Assembly: GCF_001477625.1 (NCBI RefSeq)
Contig: NZ_CP013692.1
Coordinates: 4,030,001 to 4,094,000, forward strand
From: Paucibacter sp. KCTC 42545
Lineage (GTDB): Bacteria > Pseudomonadota > Gammaproteobacteria > Burkholderiales > Burkholderiaceae_C
Reading direction: 5' to 3'
Length of the DNA: 64,000 nucleotides
Below the pieces are notes generated by a model, which did not search any database, had not been told where the DNA came from, and was given only the letters and a program-made list of their open reading frames with translations. The translations under genes were made by a program, and so were the position numbers. This document shows positions 4,365-15,087 of this stretch, in pieces (the first letter of the stretch is position 1; each line of letters starts with the position of its first letter).

Positions 4365-6353
4365 TCAGCGCGCGCGCAGCACGCGGGTGGTCTGCTCCTG
4401 CTCATTGAGGCGCTGCTGCGCCGTCAAAGGTTTGACCCGCGCCGCCGCCAACGCGGCCTGATCGAGATTGGCGCCCCAGGTCTGCCCGGCCCGCAAGGCC
4501 AGCGGCGCGGCCAGGCCGGCGCTGAAGTTGGCCGGCAACCAGGGCAGCAAATCGTTCAGCACCAGTTGCAGGCGCGGCCGGATGCTGGGCTCGCCGATGC
4601 GCCCGCGCTGGCCCCAGTTCAGCACCAGATCGGCGCTGCTGCTGCCGGGCTGCAACTGATTGGTCACGGCAAAGTCACGCAGCACGCCGTAGCGCAGCTG
4701 CATCATGCCCTCCTCCACCAGCATGGCGGCGTCCTCACGCGGCACGCTGGCGCCGCTGGGCACCGAATAGCTGTAATCGTCGTTGACCCGGTCCTGGCTG
4801 AAAAAACGGGTGATGTCCTCGGGGCGGTAGGCCTCTTGCACCGGCGTGGGTGTGGCGCCAAAGGACAGCACCGAGGCCAAGCCCTGCATCTCCTGCGAGA
4901 AGAAGGGCAAGGTTTGCGCCAGTTGCTGCGAGGCGGTGTTGACCGGGATGGCCTGGTAGACCCGCTTGCTGCTGTCCAGGCTGGCATGCACGCGGGGCGG
5001 CAGAAAGTCGTTGGCATGCGTCAGCTCGTGATACAGCAAACGCCCCAAGTCGTAGGGCAGCTCACTCAGGCTGCGGCTTTGGCGCGCGCTGATGGCGTAG
5101 CTGGTGACGGCATGCTGGTTATTCAGCACATAACGCCAAGGCGTGGCGAAGGCCAGCGTGCTGCCGTTGCCGGAGCGCGGGTCGGCGGCTTCGCTGATGC
5201 TGTCGCGCTGGGCGGGGGTGAGCCACAGATAGCTGGCATCCAGATAGATGGCGCCAGTCGTGCTCCAGTAAAAAGCCGGCCGCACCTGGCCGCCGATCAC
5301 CACGGCGGTGACGGCCGCCAGCATGCGGCGGAAGTCGCCATTGACGTCTTGCTCGCGCAAAAAGCGCTCGAACACCTCGGCCATCCAGTCGTTGGAGACG
5401 ACGACGCGCTGCATCACCTGCTCTACCGTCGGCGCCGCCCCGCCGCTGGTCTGGCCGAGGATGGGCAACTGGCCCAGGGTGCAGGTGTTGTTGGGATTGC
5501 TGCGGCTCAGGTAAGGGCTGAAGACACAGTCGCGCAGGGCCGCCGCATAAGGGCCTTGGGCCAGATAGGGGTAAGTGCGGCTGACCGGATTGCTGCTGGT
5601 GAACAAAGGGTCGGCCGGCAGACCCGGCACGGCTTGCACCAGCAGGCTGAACTGCCCCGTGGCCGTACGGCCATCGGCCAGGGTGAGCCGCACGCTCAAG
5701 CTCAGGCTGCTATCGCGCTGCAGCGCTGGCGCTTTGATGATGACGCGCCAGCCGTCGGTGCCGCTCAACGTGGCGCTGGCGTCGCCGCTCTGGCTCCAGG
5801 CCACTTGGGCGCCTTCCAATTCGGCCTCGCTGAAGCCGGGTGCCCAAGCGCGCAGCGAAGTCTGCCCACCGGCCAGCACCGAGGGCTCGCCGCGGACCAC
5901 CAGGGCCGGGGCTGCCGCCGCACTGCTGCTGTTGAACTGCACCGGCGCTTGAAAAGAGCGCCCCTTGGCATCGACATAGCGCAGATCAAACTGATAAGCC
6001 CCCGCCGCCGTGGGCTCAACACTGAGCGCCTGCGAGCGGCTGGACATGGCATTCAGGGCAGGGCCGGCGGTTTGCGTCCATTGCAGGCCGCTGAGCGTGG
6101 CGCCCTCGCAGGCGAGCAGAGCCAGTTCGGTGTTGCGGCCGGCCGGCGGTGCGGCCTCAAGCGCCAAGCGTGCCACCGAGCCGGCTTCACATTGGCTGCT
6201 GAGCGCGGGGACGGGCAGTGGCGTGGGCGTGGGGGTCGGTGGCTCATTGCCAGCAGCGCCGCTGCCTCCACCACCACCGCAGGCCGCCAAAAAGAGCAAG
6301 AGCGCCAAGCTCCAGGCTTGCGCGCCCATATTGAATGCTTTGTTCTTTTTCAT
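4365..6353 (-). CDS. large lipoprotein with an HExxH motif, possible metallopeptidase
   Basis: 662 residues from ATG 6353, which places the signal sequence at the N-terminus: LALLLFLAAC with lipobox LAAC, then a GGGGG run and a Thr/Pro linker (PTPTPTPLP). Residues about 60-260 look like Ig-type or PKD-like beta domains. HELTH at residues 442-446 (in RLLYHELTHANDF) is a zincin-type zinc motif, and a later EEGMMQLRYG could give a third ligand. Outer-membrane or periplasmic location is likely. No named peptidase family is recognised and no substrate is evident. It lies between two small one-helix proteins on the same strand. Confidence 0.6.
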   Translation of the reverse strand: MKKNKAFNMGAQAWSLALLLFLAACGGGGGSGAAGNEPPTPTPTPLPVPALSSQCEAGSVARLALEAAPPAGRNTELALLACEGATLSGLQWTQTAGPALNAMSSRSQALSVEPTAAGAYQFDLRYVDAKGRSFQAPVQFNSSSAAAAPALVVRGEPSVLAGGQTSLRAWAPGFSEAELEGAQVAWSQSGDASATLSGTDGWRVIIKAPALQRDSSLSLSVRLTLADGRTATGQFSLLVQAVPGLPADPLFTSSNPVSRTYPYLAQGPYAAALRDCVFSPYLSRSNPNNTCTLGQLPILGQTSGGAAPTVEQVMQRVVVSNDWMAEVFERFLREQDVNGDFRRMLAAVTAVVIGGQVRPAFYWSTTGAIYLDASYLWLTPAQRDSISEAADPRSGNGSTLAFATPWRYVLNNQHAVTSYAISARQSRSLSELPYDLGRLLYHELTHANDFLPPRVHASLDSSKRVYQAIPVNTASQQLAQTLPFFSQEMQGLASVLSFGATPTPVQEAYRPEDITRFFSQDRVNDDYSYSVPSGASVPREDAAMLVEEGMMQLRYGVLRDFAVTNQLQPGSSSADLVLNWGQRGRIGEPSIRPRLQLVLNDLLPWLPANFSAGLAAPLALRAGQTWGANLDQAALAAARVKPLTAQQRLNEQEQTTRVLRAR

Positions 6354-6455
6354 CGCCTTGTCTCGGTCCGGTCCCGCCATGCGGGCGGCCATATTACAAG
6401 GCGGCAGGATCAGGCGCGCAGCGGCCTAGGGGCGGCCGCTGCACATCTCAGCAGA

Positions 6456-6674: not shown

Positions 6675-6973
6675 GACGAGGGCCTTTCGGTGTTGCCTGC
6701 CAATTTTTGACAGTGAACACAGTGTCGGCAAAGGCGGGGCCGCATGCCAGCGCCGCGAGACGAAGGCGCAAATAGGCTGCGTGAACGGCGCGGGGCGGCG
6801 ATGAATGGCTGACGGGAACAGTGGCGAAAGGCAGCGCCCATCAGCGCGACCAAGCCCCTTCTAGCCCAAGACCCCAGCCCTCTCAAGCCCTATTATTTGC
6901 CACGACAAGAGCGGCCAAGCCGCCTATCGTGCGCACGGTCCGCGGGCCCACACACAACAAATCAGGGAGCACT
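6675..6973. other. divergent intergenic region before the peroxidase-P450 gene
   Basis: 299 bases between the small minus-strand gene and the fusion gene. A TTGACA lies near 6708-6713 and a possible -10 TATTAT at 6891-6896 for the rightward gene, but no good -35 pairs with the latter. AGGGAGC just before ATG 6974 is the ribosome site. Confidence 0.3.
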
Positions 6974-9900
6974 ATGAGCAAGCCAGCCTTCGAAACCCAG
7001 CTGCAAGGCATCACCGATCTGGTGCTGATCACACCGATCAAGCCCGGTTTCGTCACCGCCTTCGAGACCATCACTTATGTGGACCGGCTGCGCCGGGTGC
7101 TGAAGTCGCTCAATGCCTTGCGCCTGGGCGCGCGCGAGTCCAGCGATGCGCCGGGCTTGTTCACCGATGTGGTGAGCCGCTTCCACATCGTCCACTCCTT
7201 CCGCTGGGCCATCATCGCCCCGCCGGCTGATGCCGCACCCGGCACGCCGCACAAGCTGCTGCTCAATGTCTGCTTCGACGGCGGCTGGGAGCCCTATATG
7301 CGAGTGATCTGGGACCAGCTTGGCAGCATGCTGGACCTGATTCTGTGCCACGCCGAAGGCTACCGCCTGGCCAAGGAAACCAGCTTCGAGCGCTACAAGG
7401 ACTGGGTGCGCGAGCATGAGATCGCCAGCGATTTCCTCTACTTCGAAACCGGCCGCAGCAGCGCCGACCACGACTATTTGGCCGCCCTGGAATGGCAAGA
7501 GCGCGAGCACCCCGAGACCGATGCGGCGCTGGCCGCCACCCGCATACGCACGCCCGTGCCCGGCGAAACCGCGCCCTTGCCCGATGGCCTGCCCGCCCGC
7601 GCCGCCATGGCCGTGCGCGCCCTGCCGGCCCTGGCCACGCTGTACACGCTGGACCGCTACTTCATGCGCGATGACCCCAGCGTGGCGGACGGCCAATGCC
7701 TGATCCGCGCCGCCCGCGACATCTTGTTCGAGCTGGTGCAACTCGACACCGCCAAACTGTTCCCGCCGGGCAGCCCCCTGCGCGCCGCCTACTACCGCAT
7801 GCTGGACTGGTTTGAAAAGCCCGCCCGCGTGGCCGAGATCAGCACCCGCCAGCTTGACTACCAGCCCAGCGACATCCAAGGCGGCATGCTGACGGCCTAC
7901 CCCGACTTGAGCGGCGGCGCCATGGTCTTGCTGCGCGTGGTGCAAGCGCCGCAGGCAGTGGCCTGGCTGGCGGCCTTCCCGGCCAGCAACGAGGACGACA
8001 CGGTGAAGGGCAACAAGCCGGCCGACGGCTTCTACCGCAATGTGGCGCTGAGCCTGGCCGGCCTGCGCGCGCTGGGCGTCAGCAGCAGCCGGCTGGAGCG
8101 CATGCCCCAGCCCTTTGTGGAAGGCATGGAAGCACGCGCCGGTGTGCTGGGTGATCTGCGCCACAACCACCCGCGCTACTGGAAACTGCCGCAGCGCAAC
8201 TGGCCTGCCGCAAGCGCTAACGCCGAAAGTGGCCGGGTTGATCTGAACGCGGTGCATGTGCTGATTCAGCTGCGCCATGGCACCCAAGTCAGCGAGGCGG
8301 CGCGCCAAGCCGCCATCCAACAACTGGAGCAAGGCAGCGGCTTGCAAGTGCTGTCGGTGCAGGCCATGCGCCGCAATAGCGCACCCGGCAAGCCCAAGCA
8401 GACGGTAGAGAGCTTTGGCTTTGTCGACGGCATCAGCCAACCAGTGGTGGGCGAGCCCAGCGGCCCGACGCCGGCGCAGCCTTGGTCAGATGCGGTGCAG
8501 CGCGGCGAGCTGCTGCTGGGTTATCGCACCGATCGGGAGCGCTACGCCGTGCCCGAGCAGGCCGACGCCTTGCTGGACAAAGGCACCTTCCTGGTGGTGC
8601 GCAAGCTGCGCCAGTTTCCCGGCCGCTTGCAGCAGACCCTGGACAGCCAAGTCACCGAACTGGGTCTGGACCGCAAAACCTTGCTGGCCAAGATGATGGG
8701 CCGCTGGCCCGACGGCGTGCCCCTGGCCGCGCCCGCCATCGGCCCCGGCAACAACTTCAATTACAGCCAGGATGCCCAAGGCAAGGCCTGCCCCTTCCAC
8801 GCCCACATCCGCCGGGCCAACCCGCGCACCGACCCCACCCTGGCCACCCCGGTGCCACGCCTGCTGCGCCGCGGCATGTCCTACGGCCCGCCGCTGCAGC
8901 CGGGCCAGGCCCCGGCCGACATGGATAAGGACGAACGCGGCCTGATCTTCATGGCCTATAACGCCAGCTTGGCCGAGCAGTTCGAGACCGTGCAGCGCTG
9001 GATCTCCGGCGGCAATAGCAGCGGCGGCTATGCCGGCCAGTCCGACCCCTTTTTAGGCGTGGCCGTGCCCAAGGCCGCTGCCGCTGAGCGTCTACCCAGC
9101 ACCACGCCACGGGTGTTCCGCTTCGAGCATGAAGGCCGTGCGCTGAGCCTCAATCTGGGCGAGCAACCGCTGGTGGAGCTGCAGTGGGGCGCTTACTTCT
9201 TCGTGCCTGCCATCACCGCCCTGCGCCAGCTGCCCATGCTGGTGGAGCTGCCGGCCTTCCCCACGCCGATTGCCGTGCCGGCCCGCGCCCCCGATGTGGC
9301 CGACGCCAAAGCCTGGCAGGAATGGCTGGAAGACAGCAATAGCCGCGACGCCGCCTGGGCCTATGTGCGCAGCCAGCCGGGCGGCGTTTTGCGCACCGCC
9401 TACGGCGTGCTGGTGGGCGAGGCTGCGCGGGTCTGCGATGTGTTCCGCGACGTGGATTCGCGCTACTCGGTCAGCGGCTATGGCAGCCGCATGGCGCAAT
9501 CGGTGGGGCGCGGCTACCTCGGCATGGACGAGGACAGCGGCCACCGCGAACAGGCCCCCCTGATCAACGCAGCCATCGAGCGCATCGACGAAGCCAGTGC
9601 CTTCGGTGCCGCCCGCACCATCGCTAACGCGGTGATCAAGCAGACCGTGGGCGGCGCCCGCCAGCTGCAACTCAAAGAAGCCTTGCTGGACCTGGAGCAG
9701 CTGTCCGAACATGTGCTGGCCGCCCTGTGCCAGCAATGGTTCGGCCTGCCCGACCAGCGCCTGATGTGGGGCACCGAATGGCATGCCGCCAGCGACACAC
9801 CGGCGCCGCGCTGCCCGCGCGACTTCATCGCCGTGTCTCGCTATGTGTTCGGCCCCCACCCCAGCCCGGTGGTGGAAAAGACAGCCAGCAAAAAGGGTCA

Positions 9901-10531
9901 GGCCTTGCAGGCCGCCGTGCGCCAATGGCTGGCCGCGCAAAAGCCCGGCGCCAAGCTGCCGCCCTTGAGCCAGGCGATTGCCGAAGCCCTGGCGCCGCTG
10001 AGCCAGCAAGACCCCGACATCATCCCGCGCACCCTCACCGGCATCATGCTGGGCTTCCCGCCCACCGTGCATGGCAACACCCTGGCCTGCCTGGGCGCTT
10101 GGGTGATGAGCAAAAAGCTCTGGGATGTGCAGCAGGACTGGCCCGCCGCGCCGGCAAGCACGCCGCCGGCCCAGCTCTACAGCCGCGCAGTGTCAGCCCT
10201 GCGGCCCACGCTGCTGGCCACCATGGTGGGGCGGCCGGTGCCGAATATGGTCTGGCGCACAGCCCGCAAAGCCCATCAGTTAGGGCTGGTGGAGGTGCAG
10301 CAGGGCGAAACGCTGATCGTGGGCATTGCCTCGGCCACGCAGCAAAACCCGCGCGAGCACTACACGATGTTTGGCGGCGACCGGCGCGACGCCGTCAAGC
10401 CCGCGCCGCTGCATGCCTGCCCCGGCTATGCCATGGCCATGGGCGTGATGATGGGCGTGGCCGCGGCCGTTCTGGAGGCCGGCACGCTGCGCTTCACCGG
10501 CTCACCCACAGTGCTGGGCGTGCAGGTTTAA
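6974..10531 (+). CDS. fusion protein: N-terminal domain + DyP peroxidase + cytochrome P450-like domain
   Basis: 1185 residues from ATG 6974, preceded by AGGGAGC; the frame stays open 153 bases upstream but without a ribosome site. Residues 1 to about 295 are a domain I cannot assign. From residue 300 (DIQG) a dye-decolorizing peroxidase domain begins: GFVDG at 482-486 with catalytic Asp485, the likely proximal haem His611 in HIRRANPR, and the distal Arg632/633 in LLRRG, with spacings as in fungal and bacterial DyPs. From about residue 800 the sequence changes to a P450-like domain ending in HACPGYAMAMG, where Cys1149 would be the thiolate ligand. The usual ExxR and FxxG parts are weak, so this half is divergent. 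No signal peptide is seen. Two haems per chain are expected. It converges with the cyclase gene, 19 bases away. Confidence 0.8.
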   Translation: MSKPAFETQLQGITDLVLITPIKPGFVTAFETITYVDRLRRVLKSLNALRLGARESSDAPGLFTDVVSRFHIVHSFRWAIIAPPADAAPGTPHKLLLNVCFDGGWEPYMRVIWDQLGSMLDLILCHAEGYRLAKETSFERYKDWVREHEIASDFLYFETGRSSADHDYLAALEWQEREHPETDAALAATRIRTPVPGETAPLPDGLPARAAMAVRALPALATLYTLDRYFMRDDPSVADGQCLIRAARDILFELVQLDTAKLFPPGSPLRAAYYRMLDWFEKPARVAEISTRQLDYQPSDIQGGMLTAYPDLSGGAMVLLRVVQAPQAVAWLAAFPASNEDDTVKGNKPADGFYRNVALSLAGLRALGVSSSRLERMPQPFVEGMEARAGVLGDLRHNHPRYWKLPQRNWPAASANAESGRVDLNAVHVLIQLRHGTQVSEAARQAAIQQLEQGSGLQVLSVQAMRRNSAPGKPKQTVESFGFVDGISQPVVGEPSGPTPAQPWSDAVQRGELLLGYRTDRERYAVPEQADALLDKGTFLVVRKLRQFPGRLQQTLDSQVTELGLDRKTLLAKMMGRWPDGVPLAAPAIGPGNNFNYSQDAQGKACPFHAHIRRANPRTDPTLATPVPRLLRRGMSYGPPLQPGQAPADMDKDERGLIFMAYNASLAEQFETVQRWISGGNSSGGYAGQSDPFLGVAVPKAAAAERLPSTTPRVFRFEHEGRALSLNLGEQPLVELQWGAYFFVPAITALRQLPMLVELPAFPTPIAVPARAPDVADAKAWQEWLEDSNSRDAAWAYVRSQPGGVLRTAYGVLVGEAARVCDVFRDVDSRYSVSGYGSRMAQSVGRGYLGMDEDSGHREQAPLINAAIERIDEASAFGAARTIANAVIKQTVGGARQLQLKEALLDLEQLSEHVLAALCQQWFGLPDQRLMWGTEWHAASDTPAPRCPRDFIAVSRYVFGPHPSPVVEKTASKKGQALQAAVRQWLAAQKPGAKLPPLSQAIAEALAPLSQQDPDIIPRTLTGIMLGFPPTVHGNTLACLGAWVMSKKLWDVQQDWPAAPASTPPAQLYSRAVSALRPTLLATMVGRPVPNMVWRTARKAHQLGLVEVQQGETLIVGIASATQQNPREHYTMFGGDRRDAVKPAPLHACPGYAMAMGVMMGVAAAVLEAGTLRFTGSPTVLGVQV

Positions 10532-10550
10532 GCGAGCGCGCCGCGGGCCT

Positions 10551-13500
10551 TCAGGCCGCGGCGGCGCGCAGCCGCGCCACTTCGGCCAAATGCCAGTCCA
10601 TGCCCATGCGGGCGAACAAGGGCTCGGCCTGATCGAGCTCAGGCCCGCCGCTGCGCCCCAGGGCGGTGGCCAGCTCGGCCGCGCACAGCAGCGTCACGGC
10701 GCGCTCATGGGCCGAGCCGCGCCGCTCGGCCACGCCGAAGGCGCGCGCCAAATAGTGATCCACGCGCGCGGCGGCGGCTGCGGCCTGGCTGGCATCAGTC
10801 GCCGCCACCGCATCAGCGGCCGCCAGCCGTGCGGCGACCCGGTAAGCCATGGCCACACCGATCAAATCATTGCGGCGGGCGCGATTCAGCGCCTCGGCAA
10901 TGTGATGGCGGGCGGCCTCGACCTGGCCTTGCTCGGCCATGATTTCGGCCAACCAGCCGTGGTTGAATGAATTGAACAAGCCGCCACCGCGCGGTGCCAG
11001 CCAATGCGTGGCGTTCAGCAAGACCTGGCTGGCAGCCACCGAGCGCGTGCTCTTCCAGGCCGCGTAGGCCTGCGCCGCATGGCCCATCGCGCAGGTGAAC
11101 AGGCTGCGCACCTGGGTGCCGATGCGGTGCGCTTCTGCCGCGCAGACTTGCGCCTCGTCCCAGCGCCCTTGCCACAGCAGCACGGCGGCGCGCCAGCCCT
11201 GGATGGAGGCTTCCACCGCATGATTGCTGCCGCGCACATCGGTCAGCGCTTCCTCGAAGACGCTGTGGGCCTCCGAGAAATGGCCTTGGTCGCCCAGCAC
11301 ATAGGCCTGCACGGCCAAGGAGTAAGCCAGGCCCACATTGACCCGCCCGGGGCGATGACGCGGGCGTTGGTAGGCAATCGCCTGACCCAGCAGCGCCAGG
11401 GCCGGCTCATACTGGCCCGCCGCCGCGCGGATCTGGCCCAGCACGCCGCGCAACTGGGCCACCAGGCCTTCGTCCGTGCCTTGCTGAGCCGCGGCCAGGC
11501 CCTGCTCACAATGCTGGGCACCCACATGCGCCTGGCCGAGCGCGTAGTGCACATAACCCAGCCAATACTCGGCGCGGGCGATCAGATCCTGCTTGCCGCT
11601 GATTTGCGCCAGCTTGGCCGCATGCTTCAAGACCCGCAGGTCGGCAGCCGAGGCGTCGAACACGCAAGCCATGCCGAAGCGCTGGGCGATGGAGATCCAG
11701 CGTAGGGCAATCTCGTCGCTGGCCGGCAGATGCTCCAGCGCCTCCAGCACCGCGCGGTACTGCTGCTTGGCGCGGTCCAGGGCGGAGCCGGCCAGCGCCT
11801 GGTCACCCGCTTGTTCGGCATGCTGAGCGGCGGCTTCCCATTGGCGGGCAGCGCGGCTGTGATAGGCCAGCAGCTCATGCACCGGCGCTTGGCCCGGCTG
11901 GGCCATACGCTCGTTCAACTCGGTCAGGATGCGGCGGTGCAAAGCCTGGCGGGCCTGCATGCCAATGGCCTCATAGACCACATCGCGGGCCATGCCGTGC
12001 TTGAAACGCAAATAGCCGGGGCGCTGCGCCGGGAACACAAAGTCCTGCGCCGCGAGATTGCGCACCGCCGGGTGCGACTCATCGCAACCGGTCAAGCGCT
12101 GCAGCAGCCAGCTGGGAATCACATTGCCGATCACCGCCGTCACTCGCAGCAACTCGGCCTCGTCGGCCGCCAAGCGCGCCATGCGCGACTCAACCAGGGC
12201 CGACAACCAAGCGCTGCCATGCCCCAAGGGGTTAGCCGCCATCGCCCCAGCCGGCGACACCTGTGACACAAAGGCGCCGAAGTTGCGCAAGGCATCTTCC
12301 GCCCCGCCCTCATGCGCCAGGGCATGGCAGAGCTCCTCGATGAAGAGCGGGTTGCCACCGGCATGACGCTGGATCTCGACGGCCCAGAACGGGTCCACCC
12401 GAGGCAGCAGCTGGGCCGTGGCGGCTTGCGCCTCCTGGGCGCTGAAGGGCTGCAATTCATGCACCTGCACCGGGTCACGCCAAAGTTCGGGGGCGCTACT
12501 GAGTAAGTCGGGTGCCGCGTTCAGTCCACACTGCGCCTGCGGCCGGCTGGCGGTCAACAGCATCAGCGGCAGTTGCGCTTGCGCGGCCGTGGCGCGCAGG
12601 CGGTGCAAGAGGGCTGTGCTGGCATCGTCGGCCCAATGCAGGTCGTCGATGAAGATCAGCTGGGGCAGCTGCTGCGCCAGTTGCAGGAAGTAAGTCAGTA
12701 TGGCCTCGGCGCGTGCCTTGACTGGCAGCTGCATGACTTCAGCCGCCTGCTGGCTGCCCAGGGCGCGCTGGCTGCGCAGCATCTGCAGAAAAGGCTGCAA
12801 GGGCTCGGCGCTCAAATGGCTTTCGCAGTAGCCGCGATGGATCTGGCAATCCTCATCGGCGGAGCGGTACAGAAACTCTTCGGTCAGCCGGGTCTTGCCC
12901 AGGCCCGGCTCGGCCTGCACATTGATCCAGCGCGGCCGGCCGCGGCTGGCGGCGGCCAAGGCCTGCTCCAGCAGGTTCAGCTCGGCGCCACGCCCGACAA
13001 AGGGGCTGAGGCCGCGCAGCTGGCTGGCCTCAAAGCGGCGCTTGATGGCCGAAGTGCCAAAGATGCGGTAGACCGACAAAGGCGTCGCGCGCCCCTTGAC
13101 CAGCAGGGGCCGGCGCTCATCGGTTTGGAAGTAATGGCATTGCAGGCCCAAGCTGGCTTCGCTGACCAGGATTTCGTCGGGGCCGGCGGCCTCGCACAGG
13201 CGCGCCGCGATATTGGGCACATTGCCCAGCAGTTCGAACTTGCCGCGCACCTCGTCGCCGGCTTCCATCAGCACCATGCCGGCATGAATGCCGGAGTGCA
13301 GGGTCAGGACTTGCCTGTGCGGCCAGCAGGGCTGGCCCGAGGCTGGGCGCATCTCACGCACCGCCGCGTGCAACTCCAGGGCCGCCATGGTGGCATGCCG
13401 CCCTGCTTCTTCATCCGGCTGCGGATGGCCAAAAATGGCCAGCATGCCATCGCCTTGGATGCGCACCACCGTGCCGCCGTGTTTGGCCACCAGGCCTTGG

Positions 13501-13658
13501 TAGAGGCCGCGCAACTCGGCCAGCATCAAGGCATAGTCTTCGGCCTCCATGGCTCCCGCCAGCCGTGTCGATTCCGACAAATCAGCAAACAAGATGGTCA
13601 GGTTGCGCCTATGACCGGATGCCCTCAGTGCCGGCGCTAAATCGGACTGCTCGCTCAT
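10551..13658 (-). CDS. class III adenylate/guanylate cyclase fused to AAA ATPase and TPR region
   Basis: 1035 residues from ATG 13658 (MSEQSDLAP), which follows CAGGGGC; the longer open frame to 13994 encodes unrelated translation of the neighbour's tail. Residues about 17-200 are a class III cyclase: first metal Asp26 in LFADLSES, second metal Asp in RIQGDGMLAIFG, and LGNVPNIAARL with the transition-state Asn and Arg. From about residue 215 (FVGRGAELNLLEQAL) an AAA/STAND-type ATPase follows with Walker A EPGLGKT and the Walker B-like IFIDDLHW. The rest, to the C-terminus, is alpha-helical TPR-like repeats. This cyclase-ATPase-TPR design is common in soil and freshwater bacteria. It probably makes cAMP in response to a signal sensed by the TPR or ATPase part. 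Confidence 0.88.
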   Translation of the reverse strand: MSEQSDLAPALRASGHRRNLTILFADLSESTRLAGAMEAEDYALMLAELRGLYQGLVAKHGGTVVRIQGDGMLAIFGHPQPDEEAGRHATMAALELHAAVREMRPASGQPCWPHRQVLTLHSGIHAGMVLMEAGDEVRGKFELLGNVPNIAARLCEAAGPDEILVSEASLGLQCHYFQTDERRPLLVKGRATPLSVYRIFGTSAIKRRFEASQLRGLSPFVGRGAELNLLEQALAAASRGRPRWINVQAEPGLGKTRLTEEFLYRSADEDCQIHRGYCESHLSAEPLQPFLQMLRSQRALGSQQAAEVMQLPVKARAEAILTYFLQLAQQLPQLIFIDDLHWADDASTALLHRLRATAAQAQLPLMLLTASRPQAQCGLNAAPDLLSSAPELWRDPVQVHELQPFSAQEAQAATAQLLPRVDPFWAVEIQRHAGGNPLFIEELCHALAHEGGAEDALRNFGAFVSQVSPAGAMAANPLGHGSAWLSALVESRMARLAADEAELLRVTAVIGNVIPSWLLQRLTGCDESHPAVRNLAAQDFVFPAQRPGYLRFKHGMARDVVYEAIGMQARQALHRRILTELNERMAQPGQAPVHELLAYHSRAARQWEAAAQHAEQAGDQALAGSALDRAKQQYRAVLEALEHLPASDEIALRWISIAQRFGMACVFDASAADLRVLKHAAKLAQISGKQDLIARAEYWLGYVHYALGQAHVGAQHCEQGLAAAQQGTDEGLVAQLRGVLGQIRAAAGQYEPALALLGQAIAYQRPRHRPGRVNVGLAYSLAVQAYVLGDQGHFSEAHSVFEEALTDVRGSNHAVEASIQGWRAAVLLWQGRWDEAQVCAAEAHRIGTQVRSLFTCAMGHAAQAYAAWKSTRSVAASQVLLNATHWLAPRGGGLFNSFNHGWLAEIMAEQGQVEAARHHIAEALNRARRNDLIGVAMAYRVAARLAAADAVAATDASQAAAAAARVDHYLARAFGVAERRGSAHERAVTLLCAAELATALGRSGGPELDQAEPLFARMGMDWHLAEVARLRAAAA

Positions 13659-13824
13659 GCCCCTGTTCTCATTTTTTTCGGGCTGAGGTACACCGCCTTC
13701 GCCCAGCAAGCCAATGGCTTGTTGCGAAAGACGGTCTTGCGCCAACCCTTTTTTGATCACCCGCGGCTCTTTGGCCGACGTTCTGGCGCGTATCGTACCG
13801 CTTGGTGATAGAAAAAAGGAATTA

Positions 13825-13938
13825 CTACCTTTCCAGGGGGATGCCGAAGTCCGCCAAATCCTCTTCGCGCAGGCCCAGGTAAATGGATTCCCCCTGGCGG
13901 CGGTGGATATTGATCTTGGCGTTATAGACCCGGTGCTA
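13825..13938 (-). other. in-frame coding-like extension beyond the amber stop of the cyclase-like gene
   Basis: Reading on in the same frame after TAG (13936-13938), 36 further codons encode a well-formed protein tail (HRVYNAKINIHRR, then GESIYLGLREEDLADFGI) before a second TAG at 13825-13827. Codon use matches the neighbouring genes, and the composition is that of a soluble domain end, unlike the odd Ser/Thr-rich translation of the overlapping frame. This suggests that the ancestral protein was about 420 residues long. The sequence alone cannot tell a recent nonsense mutation from readthrough or a base error. Confidence 0.6.
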
Positions 13939-15087
13939 TAGACCATGCTTGTCGCGGATGGCGAATTCGCTGATGTCGAATTGGCTCTCTTCATCGCGCC
14001 GCCCGGTCAGGTAGCAGGCGATTTCGTCAATCTCCGAACCACCCAGGGCCAGGCCGTCGAGTTGCTTGAGCGGGGAGCGAGCGCGCTCCACAAAGTCTTT
14101 GCTGTCGATGCGCTGGCTATTGCCGCCCTGGCTGTCGTGCATCAAGGTGCTGAATTTTCCCACCAGGATCTGGCCGGGCAAGGCGCGGTCCAGCATGCGC
14201 GCCAACTCGATCGTGACCTGGCCCACCAAATAGCTGAAAGAGGTCGGGTTCAGGCCTTCGGACTGATAGAACTCGTAGTGCGAACCGACATGGAAGGCGG
14301 CGCGCAGGCGCGGCACCGATTCCGGCCGCAATGCCCGCTCACGCGCCAGGGCGTTATCGGCCAGGATGAATTGCAGCAGCTGGTAAAGCTCCACATTGGC
14401 TTCGATGCCGCGCATGCGGTTCCAGATGTAGAAGCCGTCGCCGGTGGTGGTGCGGGCGAAATTGATATTGATCTCGCGGTCCAGCAGCTTGGCATAAGCG
14501 GCGTTGACCGAGCAGGACAAGCTGCCCAACTGCACCACTTGCTGCAGCGGCTTGAGCAGGGAGAAGCCCACTGTGTCGAGCAGAATCACGGCGCGATCTT
14601 CCACCAGGCGGATGCTGTAGCGCGCCACGATGGCGGCCACCAGCTCCAGGCCCAAGCCCAGCTTGGGCTCGAAGGGCAGGTCCACATGCAGGGGCGCGAT
14701 ACCGAATTCGGCCGCCAGGGCATCTAACTGGGCGTCGGGCAGCTGGCCGGGTTGGGCCAGCACCTCGTCGAGCAAGCGGCTGCGGCGTTCGCCTTCGGCC
14801 TCATCATTGGCGGCCTGGGCCGCCTGCACGAACTCGGTCAACATCGGGTGCGGGGCCAGCAGCAAGCGCAAACCCTGCGCACTGGGCGCCCAGCCGTAGA
14901 CCAGGTTCTGACCCAGGTCCCACAACTCGTAGAGGCGTTGGTCGAGCAGCATGATGTGCTCGCGCACCTCGGCCTCGCTCAATTGCGCTGGCCAGTCGTA
15001 GGCCATGAAGCCGTCCAGCCATGACTTGCGGCGGCGTAACACTTCGTTCAATCCCAACACTCCTTGGCGACTCTCAATGCCGCGCAT
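13936..15087 (-). CDS. divergent class III nucleotide cyclase-like protein, apparently truncated by an amber codon
   Basis: 383 residues from ATG 15087; no clear ribosome site, and MAYDWPAQ at residue 28 is an alternative start. The first half is helical and unassigned. From about residue 165 the order of motifs matches the class III cyclase fold: ILLDTVGFSLL (metal Asp), TTTGDGFYIWN (second Asp), AAFHVGSHYEF, and YLVGQVTIELARMLDRALPG followed by QILVG. The Asn of the usual VNxAAR motif is not conserved (VTIELAR), so activity is doubtful. It ends at TAG 13936, but coding-like sequence continues in frame for 36 codons. It lies upstream of the true cyclase gene on the same strand and may be co-transcribed with it. 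Confidence 0.6.
   Translation of the reverse strand: MRGIESRQGVLGLNEVLRRRKSWLDGFMAYDWPAQLSEAEVREHIMLLDQRLYELWDLGQNLVYGWAPSAQGLRLLLAPHPMLTEFVQAAQAANDEAEGERRSRLLDEVLAQPGQLPDAQLDALAAEFGIAPLHVDLPFEPKLGLGLELVAAIVARYSIRLVEDRAVILLDTVGFSLLKPLQQVVQLGSLSCSVNAAYAKLLDREININFARTTTGDGFYIWNRMRGIEANVELYQLLQFILADNALARERALRPESVPRLRAAFHVGSHYEFYQSEGLNPTSFSYLVGQVTIELARMLDRALPGQILVGKFSTLMHDSQGGNSQRIDSKDFVERARSPLKQLDGLALGGSEIDEIACYLTGRRDEESQFDISEFAIRDKHGL

Follow-up and report, generated by a model that had tools for sequence, protein, structure and literature searches.

On fatty acid hydroperoxides, a catalase-like protein (in the coral allene oxide synthase-lipoxygenase) and a cytochrome P450 (plant CYP74) can fill the same role (compare the abstract start of PMC5617202), and CYP74 acts on (hydro)peroxides without external electrons. 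In fungi, the DOX-CYP fusions (linoleate diol, allene oxide and epoxy alcohol synthases) combine a haem peroxidase-type domain and a P450 with an HxC Cys loop on one chain and are described as self-sufficient in an excerpt of one report (PMC13049297). DyP peroxidases are known to oxidise dyes and lignin compounds, and their physiological role and natural substrates are described as unclear in the part of PMC10820274 covered here. A class V (C-type) DyP, such as DrDyP of Deinococcus radiodurans (8re2), was solved as a separate chain of 442 residues. Here, we analysed a 64,000-nucleotide stretch of Paucibacter sp. KCTC 42545 (NZ_CP013692.1, positions 4,030,001 to 4,094,000; hereafter the window), located inside one 5.17-Mb contig, in which a DyP sits between an N-terminal domain (N-domain) and a predicted P450 on a single chain. 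The gene of this chain faces that of a class III nucleotide cyclase tail to tail, which is a new arrangement.

The three-domain chain is encoded at 6974..10531 (+) by an uninterrupted frame of 1185 residues. By inspection, a Shine-Dalgarno-like AGGGAG (6964..6969, +) is positioned 4 nt 5' of the ATG, and the start of the translated protein does not look like a secretion signal. The N-domain (residues 1-295; 6974..7858, +) consists of a putative ferredoxin-like module at about residues 10-160 and a helical tail; it is followed by the DyP peroxidase domain (residues about 296-758; 7859..9247, +) and the P450 domain (residues about 775-1185; 9296..10528, +). An initial annotation, made from the letters of this DNA, had proposed just such a single-chain fusion of a DyP and a P450 behind an N-terminal domain, and this is confirmed. 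Pfam and NCBIfam suggest a plain DyP, which we rejected as both libraries miss the P450 half and the N-domain. The fusion as such is already annotated in databases, since JGI names some relatives as DyP-type peroxidase/cytochrome P450 ('deferrochelatase/peroxidase EfeB/cytochrome P450'). Besides the single copy of the chain, the genome has one P450 according to PF00067 and, according to PF20628, no further DyP; the closest database relative, at 99% identity, is that of Roseateles sp. PN1. The architecture of the chain and its gene association are established, and its folds are given as models.

Relatives were obtained by a DNA-pattern scan of one genome per species, where one of the two patterns was an N-domain motif and retention was limited to the 80 top matches. 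The best 79 of the 571 loci encoding a relative (L002-L080) and the window make up an unselected set of 80 loci; nine loci picked for a DyP and a cyclase on the same contig (L118-L126) extend it to 89. In addition, 200 genomes of the window's family (G numbers), which may include some of the named-locus genomes, were searched. The profiles for cyclase, N-domain, P450, catalase-like protein and patatin were built from few members of the same loci. Among the kept loci, full chains occurred in Roseateles, Pelomonas, Paucibacter, Rubrivivax, Variovorax and Pseudorhodoferax, in Sphingomonas, Novosphingobium, Sphingopyxis and Erythrobacter, and in delta-, gamma- and myxobacterial assemblies. Nitrospira, Archangium, Bradyrhizobium, Nitrosomonas, Methylomonas, Actinomycetota, Bacteroidota and Acidobacteriota had shorter forms, with DyP and P450 or with the DyP alone. 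Within the family, 20 of the 200 genomes carry the full chain (in G071 it was matched in two pieces). This survey thus found the same architecture in many genera, with the domains on one chain rather than always split by a sequencing gap. Thirty ordinary P450 loci gave no match to the cyclase, N-domain, DyP, catalase-like or patatin profiles, a weak control as these loci are short (114 kb in total); the rest of the window gave no match to these five profiles either.

The DyP domain takes the DyP fold in the structure model. Asp485 of the distal GxxDG motif (8426..8428, +), the proximal haem ligand His611 (8804..8806, +) and the distal arginine Arg633 (8870..8872, +) are kept in 47 of 47 aligned chains, and the first Gly of the motif in 46. 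The initial annotation had named Asp485, His611 and Arg632/633. In a tree of DyP domains, 50 three-domain rows, including L041 and L048, which are cut or split open reading frames (ORFs), are set apart from the others by a branch with full support (100/100).

The C-terminal region folds as a P450 in the structure model and carries the thiolate ligand Cys1149 within HACPG (10418..10420, +), both of which had been predicted before. This Cys is present in all 47 aligned chains and in all 198 homologues that have a residue at its position, so none of these has lost the ligand. The Cys loop, FxxGxHxCxG, is longer than usual, with an F-to-C span of 12-22 residues versus 8 (47-chain alignment). In the I-helix sequence GFPPT (residues 1027-1031; 10052..10066, +), the Thr is kept and Pro takes the place of the acid: among 200 relatives with letters at position 1030, 186 have Pro, 14 Ala and none an acid, and T1031 is present in 195. 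Both residues of the K-helix ExxR position (1082-1085; 10217..10228, +) are lost. The in-register pair is kept in 6 and lost in 194 of the 200 relatives; E occurs at 1082 in 18 rows and R at 1085 in 43, counts that look like erosion of the motif. Any ExxR within 1074-1090 was found in 15 of the 200 profile-aligned relatives, 6 of them those with the pair at 1082/1085, and in one of 47 chains, out of register, in alignment A1. A plain text pattern had given 33 of 196 three-domain proteins, mostly misplaced, and is superseded by the profile-aligned count.

Two-domain DyP-P450 chains of other bacteria show the same DyP-then-P450 order on one chain, and Pfam recognises both domains, but their P450 keeps ExxR, unlike that of the three-domain chain. 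Our contrast set consists of the 46 proteins in which the Cys-loop pattern was found, out of 120 that are mostly two-domain chains by precomputed Pfam; all 46 carry an upstream ExxR, and the acid-Thr pattern was matched in 25 of them. According to the part of PMC3990721 covered here, the Cys is invariant in all P450s while EXXR has exceptions, CYP157-type P450s likewise lack EXXR and keep the Cys, and Streptomyces P450s that lack EXXR are described as functional. For this reason we call the C-terminal half a divergent P450, without the near-universal K-helix ExxR and without the I-helix acid-alcohol pair of the monooxygenase mechanism. CYP157-type enzymes are Streptomyces P450s not known to be fused to a peroxidase, whereas here the loss of ExxR spans most of a fusion family. 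As the I-helix acid is absent and ExxR eroded, while P450s without EXXR are stated to be functional, the half may perform P450 chemistry with no need of reductive O2 activation. No redox partner gene was found among the Pfam-scanned neighbours. The P450-half profile recognises the P450 parts of L050, L053, L054, L060, L078 and L080 (E 5e-26 to 1e-4) and not the free-standing P450 of L059 (E 0.15). A 417-aa frame without DyP (G114:C1:1152988-1153248) is hit by the P450 section of the family profile (E 1.8e-5) and is perhaps a free-standing relative.

The initial annotation could name no family for the first 295 residues, and Pfam gives no match to the N-domain. It had not seen, however, that the N-domain is a recurring DyP partner. 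Its match to the ferredoxin-like fold of the dimeric alpha+beta barrel (antibiotic-monooxygenase-like) group is weak. The domain also occurs in separate small genes 5' of DyPs and, as two copies with a hydrophobic middle, in larger proteins 5' of DyPs. This kind of DyP is present in 38 family genomes, after exclusion of eight of the 46 matched in which only the short 535-674 stretch or only the P450 part was hit. The N-domain was detected in 37 of the 200 genomes, all among these 38; in the exception, G097, a weak match was found locally. It is encoded 5' of the DyP in four of five plasmid records (Granulicella, Sinorhizobium, Nostoc and Rhizobium), and in the fifth (Sphingopyxis) the N-terminal part of the chain is missing. 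On that Sphingopyxis plasmid (L127, 3944-13037), the chain copy begins inside the DyP region beside a Tn3 transposase gene, with the cyclase and a Crp/Fnr regulator still adjoining.

The convergent partner gene (10551..13994, -) encodes a protein of 1147 aa with a class III nucleotide cyclase domain, an AAA_16 NTPase and TPR (PF00211, PF13191 and TPR models), and its stop codon is separated from that of the chain by a 19-bp spacer (10532..10550). Together with the missing ExxR pair and I-helix acid of the P450, this conserved tail-to-tail pairing goes beyond the initial annotation. Among 48 three-domain ORFs (named-genome loci and window), the cyclase is convergent within 200 bp in 34, 12 of these with overlapping ends, and located at 1.4-6.9 kb in 9. 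Three have none despite 1.2 to 8 kb of room (L007 and L012, none within 8 kb; L010, none in 1.2 kb), and two offer no room. All 20 family genomes with the chain have a cyclase orthologue, compared to 2 of the other 180, and in each of the 20 it lies on the same contig and opposite strand, facing the chain gene at a distance of 0 to 5.5 kb. Full-length orthologues score at least 891 bits, with the next match at 443, and 22 genomes hold one; the remaining two are G154, with no chain in the 11 kb covered, and G118, whose contig stops at the cyclase. The Fisher test for chain versus orthologue gives p = 1.4e-25, a value that treats the genomes as independent, which they are not. The base rate in the window's own genome is two PF00211 matches. 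Cyclases of the same kind also adjoin DyPs outside the three-domain clade (L059, L061, L079 and L080; layout confirmed by Pfam for three).

Within the cyclase domain, D138 and D182 are invariant and N261 and R265 at least 90% conserved (19 aligned sequences), corresponding to 45, 45, 42 and 44 of 46 in a wider alignment. We take D138/D182 to be the metal-binding Asp pair and N261/R265 the active-site Asn and Arg, transition-state residues included. The partner has the domain order of soluble adenylyl cyclase (class III cyclase-AAA-TPR); it differs from proteins of this layout in its near-constant haem-enzyme neighbour and at the usual base-selecting Lys, which is not seen. In L120 and L127, the gene next to the cyclase on its upstream side encodes a protein binding cyclic nucleotide monophosphate (cNMP). 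The seven upstream-side neighbours scanned comprised these two, two types of dehydrogenase, an enoyl-CoA hydratase, part of a kinase ATPase and one protein that had no match. In the window, the end of an ORF at 13936-15087 (-) overlaps the cyclase start by 59 bp, and the two are possibly co-translated.

Among relatives, the modules are shuffled. The 89 loci contain the N-domain in 87 cases, a P450 or catalase-like protein in 80 (68 and 13, respectively, one locus having both) and the cyclase in 59. The corresponding numbers for the 80 unselected loci are 79, 71 (61 P450, 11 catalase-like; L056 has both) and 50; nine of these loci have neither the P450 nor the catalase-like protein, and in four of the nine (L041, L055, L061 and L072) the locus runs up to the end of its contig. 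Besides N-DyP-P450 as a single chain, we found a separate upstream N-domain gene followed by DyP-P450 (L050, L053, L054, L060 and L080); N-domain, DyP and P450 as three genes (L078); a cyclase gene followed by a P450-N gene and a DyP gene (L118, L119, L121, L123, L125 and L126); and N-domain genes, DyP, a catalase-like gene and cyclase (L120 and L122). The P450 of the P450-N genes is supported by Pfam in L123, just below the cut-off in L118 and unseen in L126. For the catalase-like protein, a profile of five sequences gave coral allene oxide synthase-lipoxygenase as best PDB matches (1u5u, E 1e-4; 3dy5, E 0.0015). The partner of coral allene oxide synthase and of plant CYP74 is a lipoxygenase, whereas here it is a DyP. 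A single-sequence PDB search with the 404-aa gene beside the N. europaea DyP yielded chance matches only, and Pfam and NCBIfam none. At L066 (6661-10723), L062, L073 and L077 (Nitrosomonas, Methylomonas and others), a double N-domain protein with a hydrophobic middle, a DyP and a gene of about 400 aa, related to coral allene oxide synthase and unnamed by Pfam, occur together. In L056 (1841-10608; Desulfuromonadales), genes for an animal haem peroxidase, P450, N-domain, DyP and catalase-like protein stand in a row.

Lipid genes recur near the relatives. Patatin, confirmed by PF01734 in every case, occurs in 10 of the 89 loci, as a fusion in two and in the vicinity of the DyP or its cyclase in the other eight. 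An ORF of 1552 residues from an uncultured Myxococcales assembly (L044, 6924-11585, +) comprises patatin, N-domain, DyP and P450, with the cyclase convergent beside it; in a family relative (L124, 1187-5242, -), the DyP has a C-terminal patatin, and a P450-like ORF and the cyclase lie upstream. Patatin adjoins the DyP in L119, L121, L123, L125 and L126; in L030 it immediately precedes the chain, in L040 it lies past the cyclase, and in L067 it is close to the DyP. A weak additional patatin-like match in L071 was not counted. A class 3 lipase (lipase_3) is present in L078, and FadL is encoded right after the chain in three Nitrospirota loci.

These findings lead us to propose, with a confidence just short of even, that the chain is a two-haem oxidation enzyme of the oxylipin-synthase type that forms one system with the nucleotide cyclase. 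The DyP domain would oxidise an acyl-lipid substrate, or make or handle its hydroperoxide, and the P450 domain would then rearrange or cleave the (hydro)peroxide with no external supply of electrons, in the manner of CYP74, thromboxane synthase and the P450 part of DOX-CYP fusions. The N-domain may be a docking or substrate-entry module for the DyP, and the cyclase-AAA-TPR protein may read the product or its state and make a cyclic nucleotide. Haem loading of both sites, the lipid substrate, the order of the steps and the signalling are what we infer here. Lipid (hydro)peroxide chemistry is suggested by gene association, since the P450 is exchanged for an allene-oxide-synthase-like catalase, a phospholipase occurs in the same chain and the P450 has no acid; the signalling role is suggested in the same way by the cyclase partner and the two cNMP-binding neighbours. 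The chain shares the one-chain layout and the HxC Cys loop with the DOX-CYP enzymes and would work like them, but it is not a member, because its peroxidase half is a DyP (no match to PF03098, animal haem peroxidase, at E 0.1), whereas the first domain of DOX-CYP belongs to the peroxidase-cyclooxygenase superfamily and is not known to come with an N-domain or cyclase gene.

Several observations weigh against this proposal. The loss of ExxR could mean that the P450 is inactive, and the match of the catalase-like protein is one stretch of about 60 residues. Patatin is found in just 10 of 89 loci, 6 of these 10 among the nine picked for DyP and cyclase; none of the neighbours scanned in the window is a patatin, lipase or FadL gene, so that the lipid clues come from relatives, and the 10 patatin matches of the genome (9 over the cut-off) are all outside the window. 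Some cyclase-type match exists in 184 of the 200 family genomes, and the orthologue is told apart by the score gap alone. No adenine-selecting Lys was seen in the cyclase, where the positions before GDG hold R, Q, N, S and others. Just two of the seven upstream-side cyclase neighbours bind cNMP, and that of the window (13936-15087, 383 aa) has no Pfam match. Finally, according to the excerpt of PMC10820274, the solved DyP that matches best has a low-spin haem and shows no activity at pH 7.5, or physiological pH. This last point would suit a haem-based sensor of peroxide or oxidised lipid, in which an eroded P450 binds haem or ligand without turnover and signals to the cyclase by contact. Such a sensor would account for the near-obligate cyclase partner and for the loss of the ExxR pair (194/200) and the acid (200/200) with Cys and fold kept. 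We nevertheless consider it unlikely, as the catalytic residues of the DyP do not vary, functional Streptomyces P450s lacking EXXR are reported (PMC3990721, in part), and the P450 of relatives either keeps ExxR or gives way to a catalase-like protein, which fits chemistry better than sensing.

The activity of known DyPs on dyes and lignin compounds (PMC10820274, in part) and the roots, soil or groundwater in the record titles of some relatives would be consistent with an ordinary broad-range peroxide-driven oxidase for aromatics or detoxification, with the cyclase merely regulating expression or adjoining by history. The absence of an apparent secretion signal, the lipid nature of the recurring extra genes among those scanned, and a cyclase pairing and module re-use in varied fusions across proteobacterial classes that look beyond history make this explanation quite unlikely. 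A peroxygenase for one specialised metabolite, with the DyP domain adjusting or clearing H2O2 on behalf of the P450 domain, would agree with a P450 that has no I-helix acid and no redox partner gene nearby. It appears improbable, however, because the scanned neighbours include no biosynthetic cluster and a catalase-like gene, which would not preserve peroxygenase chemistry, takes the place of the P450 in 10 of the 80 unselected loci. A defence pair as in Pycsar, with the cyclase sensing infection and the haem chain as effector, is very improbable: PADLOC PycC models match the cyclase (best E 3.5e-15), but the match is limited to the cyclase domain, and the chain matches no PADLOC model (other neighbours were outside the PADLOC scan).

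On the other side of the chain gene, a divergent ORF of 675 aa (4365-6392, -) gave matches to PKD, an M36-peptidase tail and 'lipo-invert', all sub-threshold. The initial annotation knew of no described bacterial system of this layout. Among the papers listed from open PMC full text, no title or abstract start describes the chain layout, a two-domain DyP-P450 fusion or the cyclase pairing, most subscription papers and preprints being outside this coverage. The overall interpretation of the initial annotation is supported by the P450 fold model, the kept Cys and the single chains across genera; the two bound haems and the passage of oxidised substrate or peroxide from one site to the other that it suggested are predictions.

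Taken together, the loci reveal a large, well-marked group of DyPs with a constant partner domain, in most cases a second haem enzyme, fused or adjoining, and, in one large clade, a near-constant cyclase. This narrows the question of natural DyP substrates to a short list, namely lipid or lipid-hydroperoxide turnover with a cyclase responding to the product, and raises the possibility that bacteria have a counterpart of the signalling by oxidised fatty acids known from animals, plants and fungi. More tentatively, and with more doubt than confidence, the loci may represent a compact, shuffled eicosanoid-type cascade of patatin, DyP, either a P450 that needs no reductase or a catalase resembling allene oxide synthase, and a cyclase with cNMP-binding output, several of them sometimes on one chain. 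Such a cascade would have its origin in a peroxidase unrelated to cyclooxygenase, so that signalling from oxidised lipid to cyclic nucleotide would have been invented independently, and it would be what class V DyPs do in the cell. Should the lipid reading hold, bacteria would couple reductase-free P450 chemistry to a cyclase on the basis of such a peroxidase. Apart from that reading, this conserved fusion family, with a P450 half that is unseen by Pfam and mostly without ExxR, informs what P450 folding and function need.

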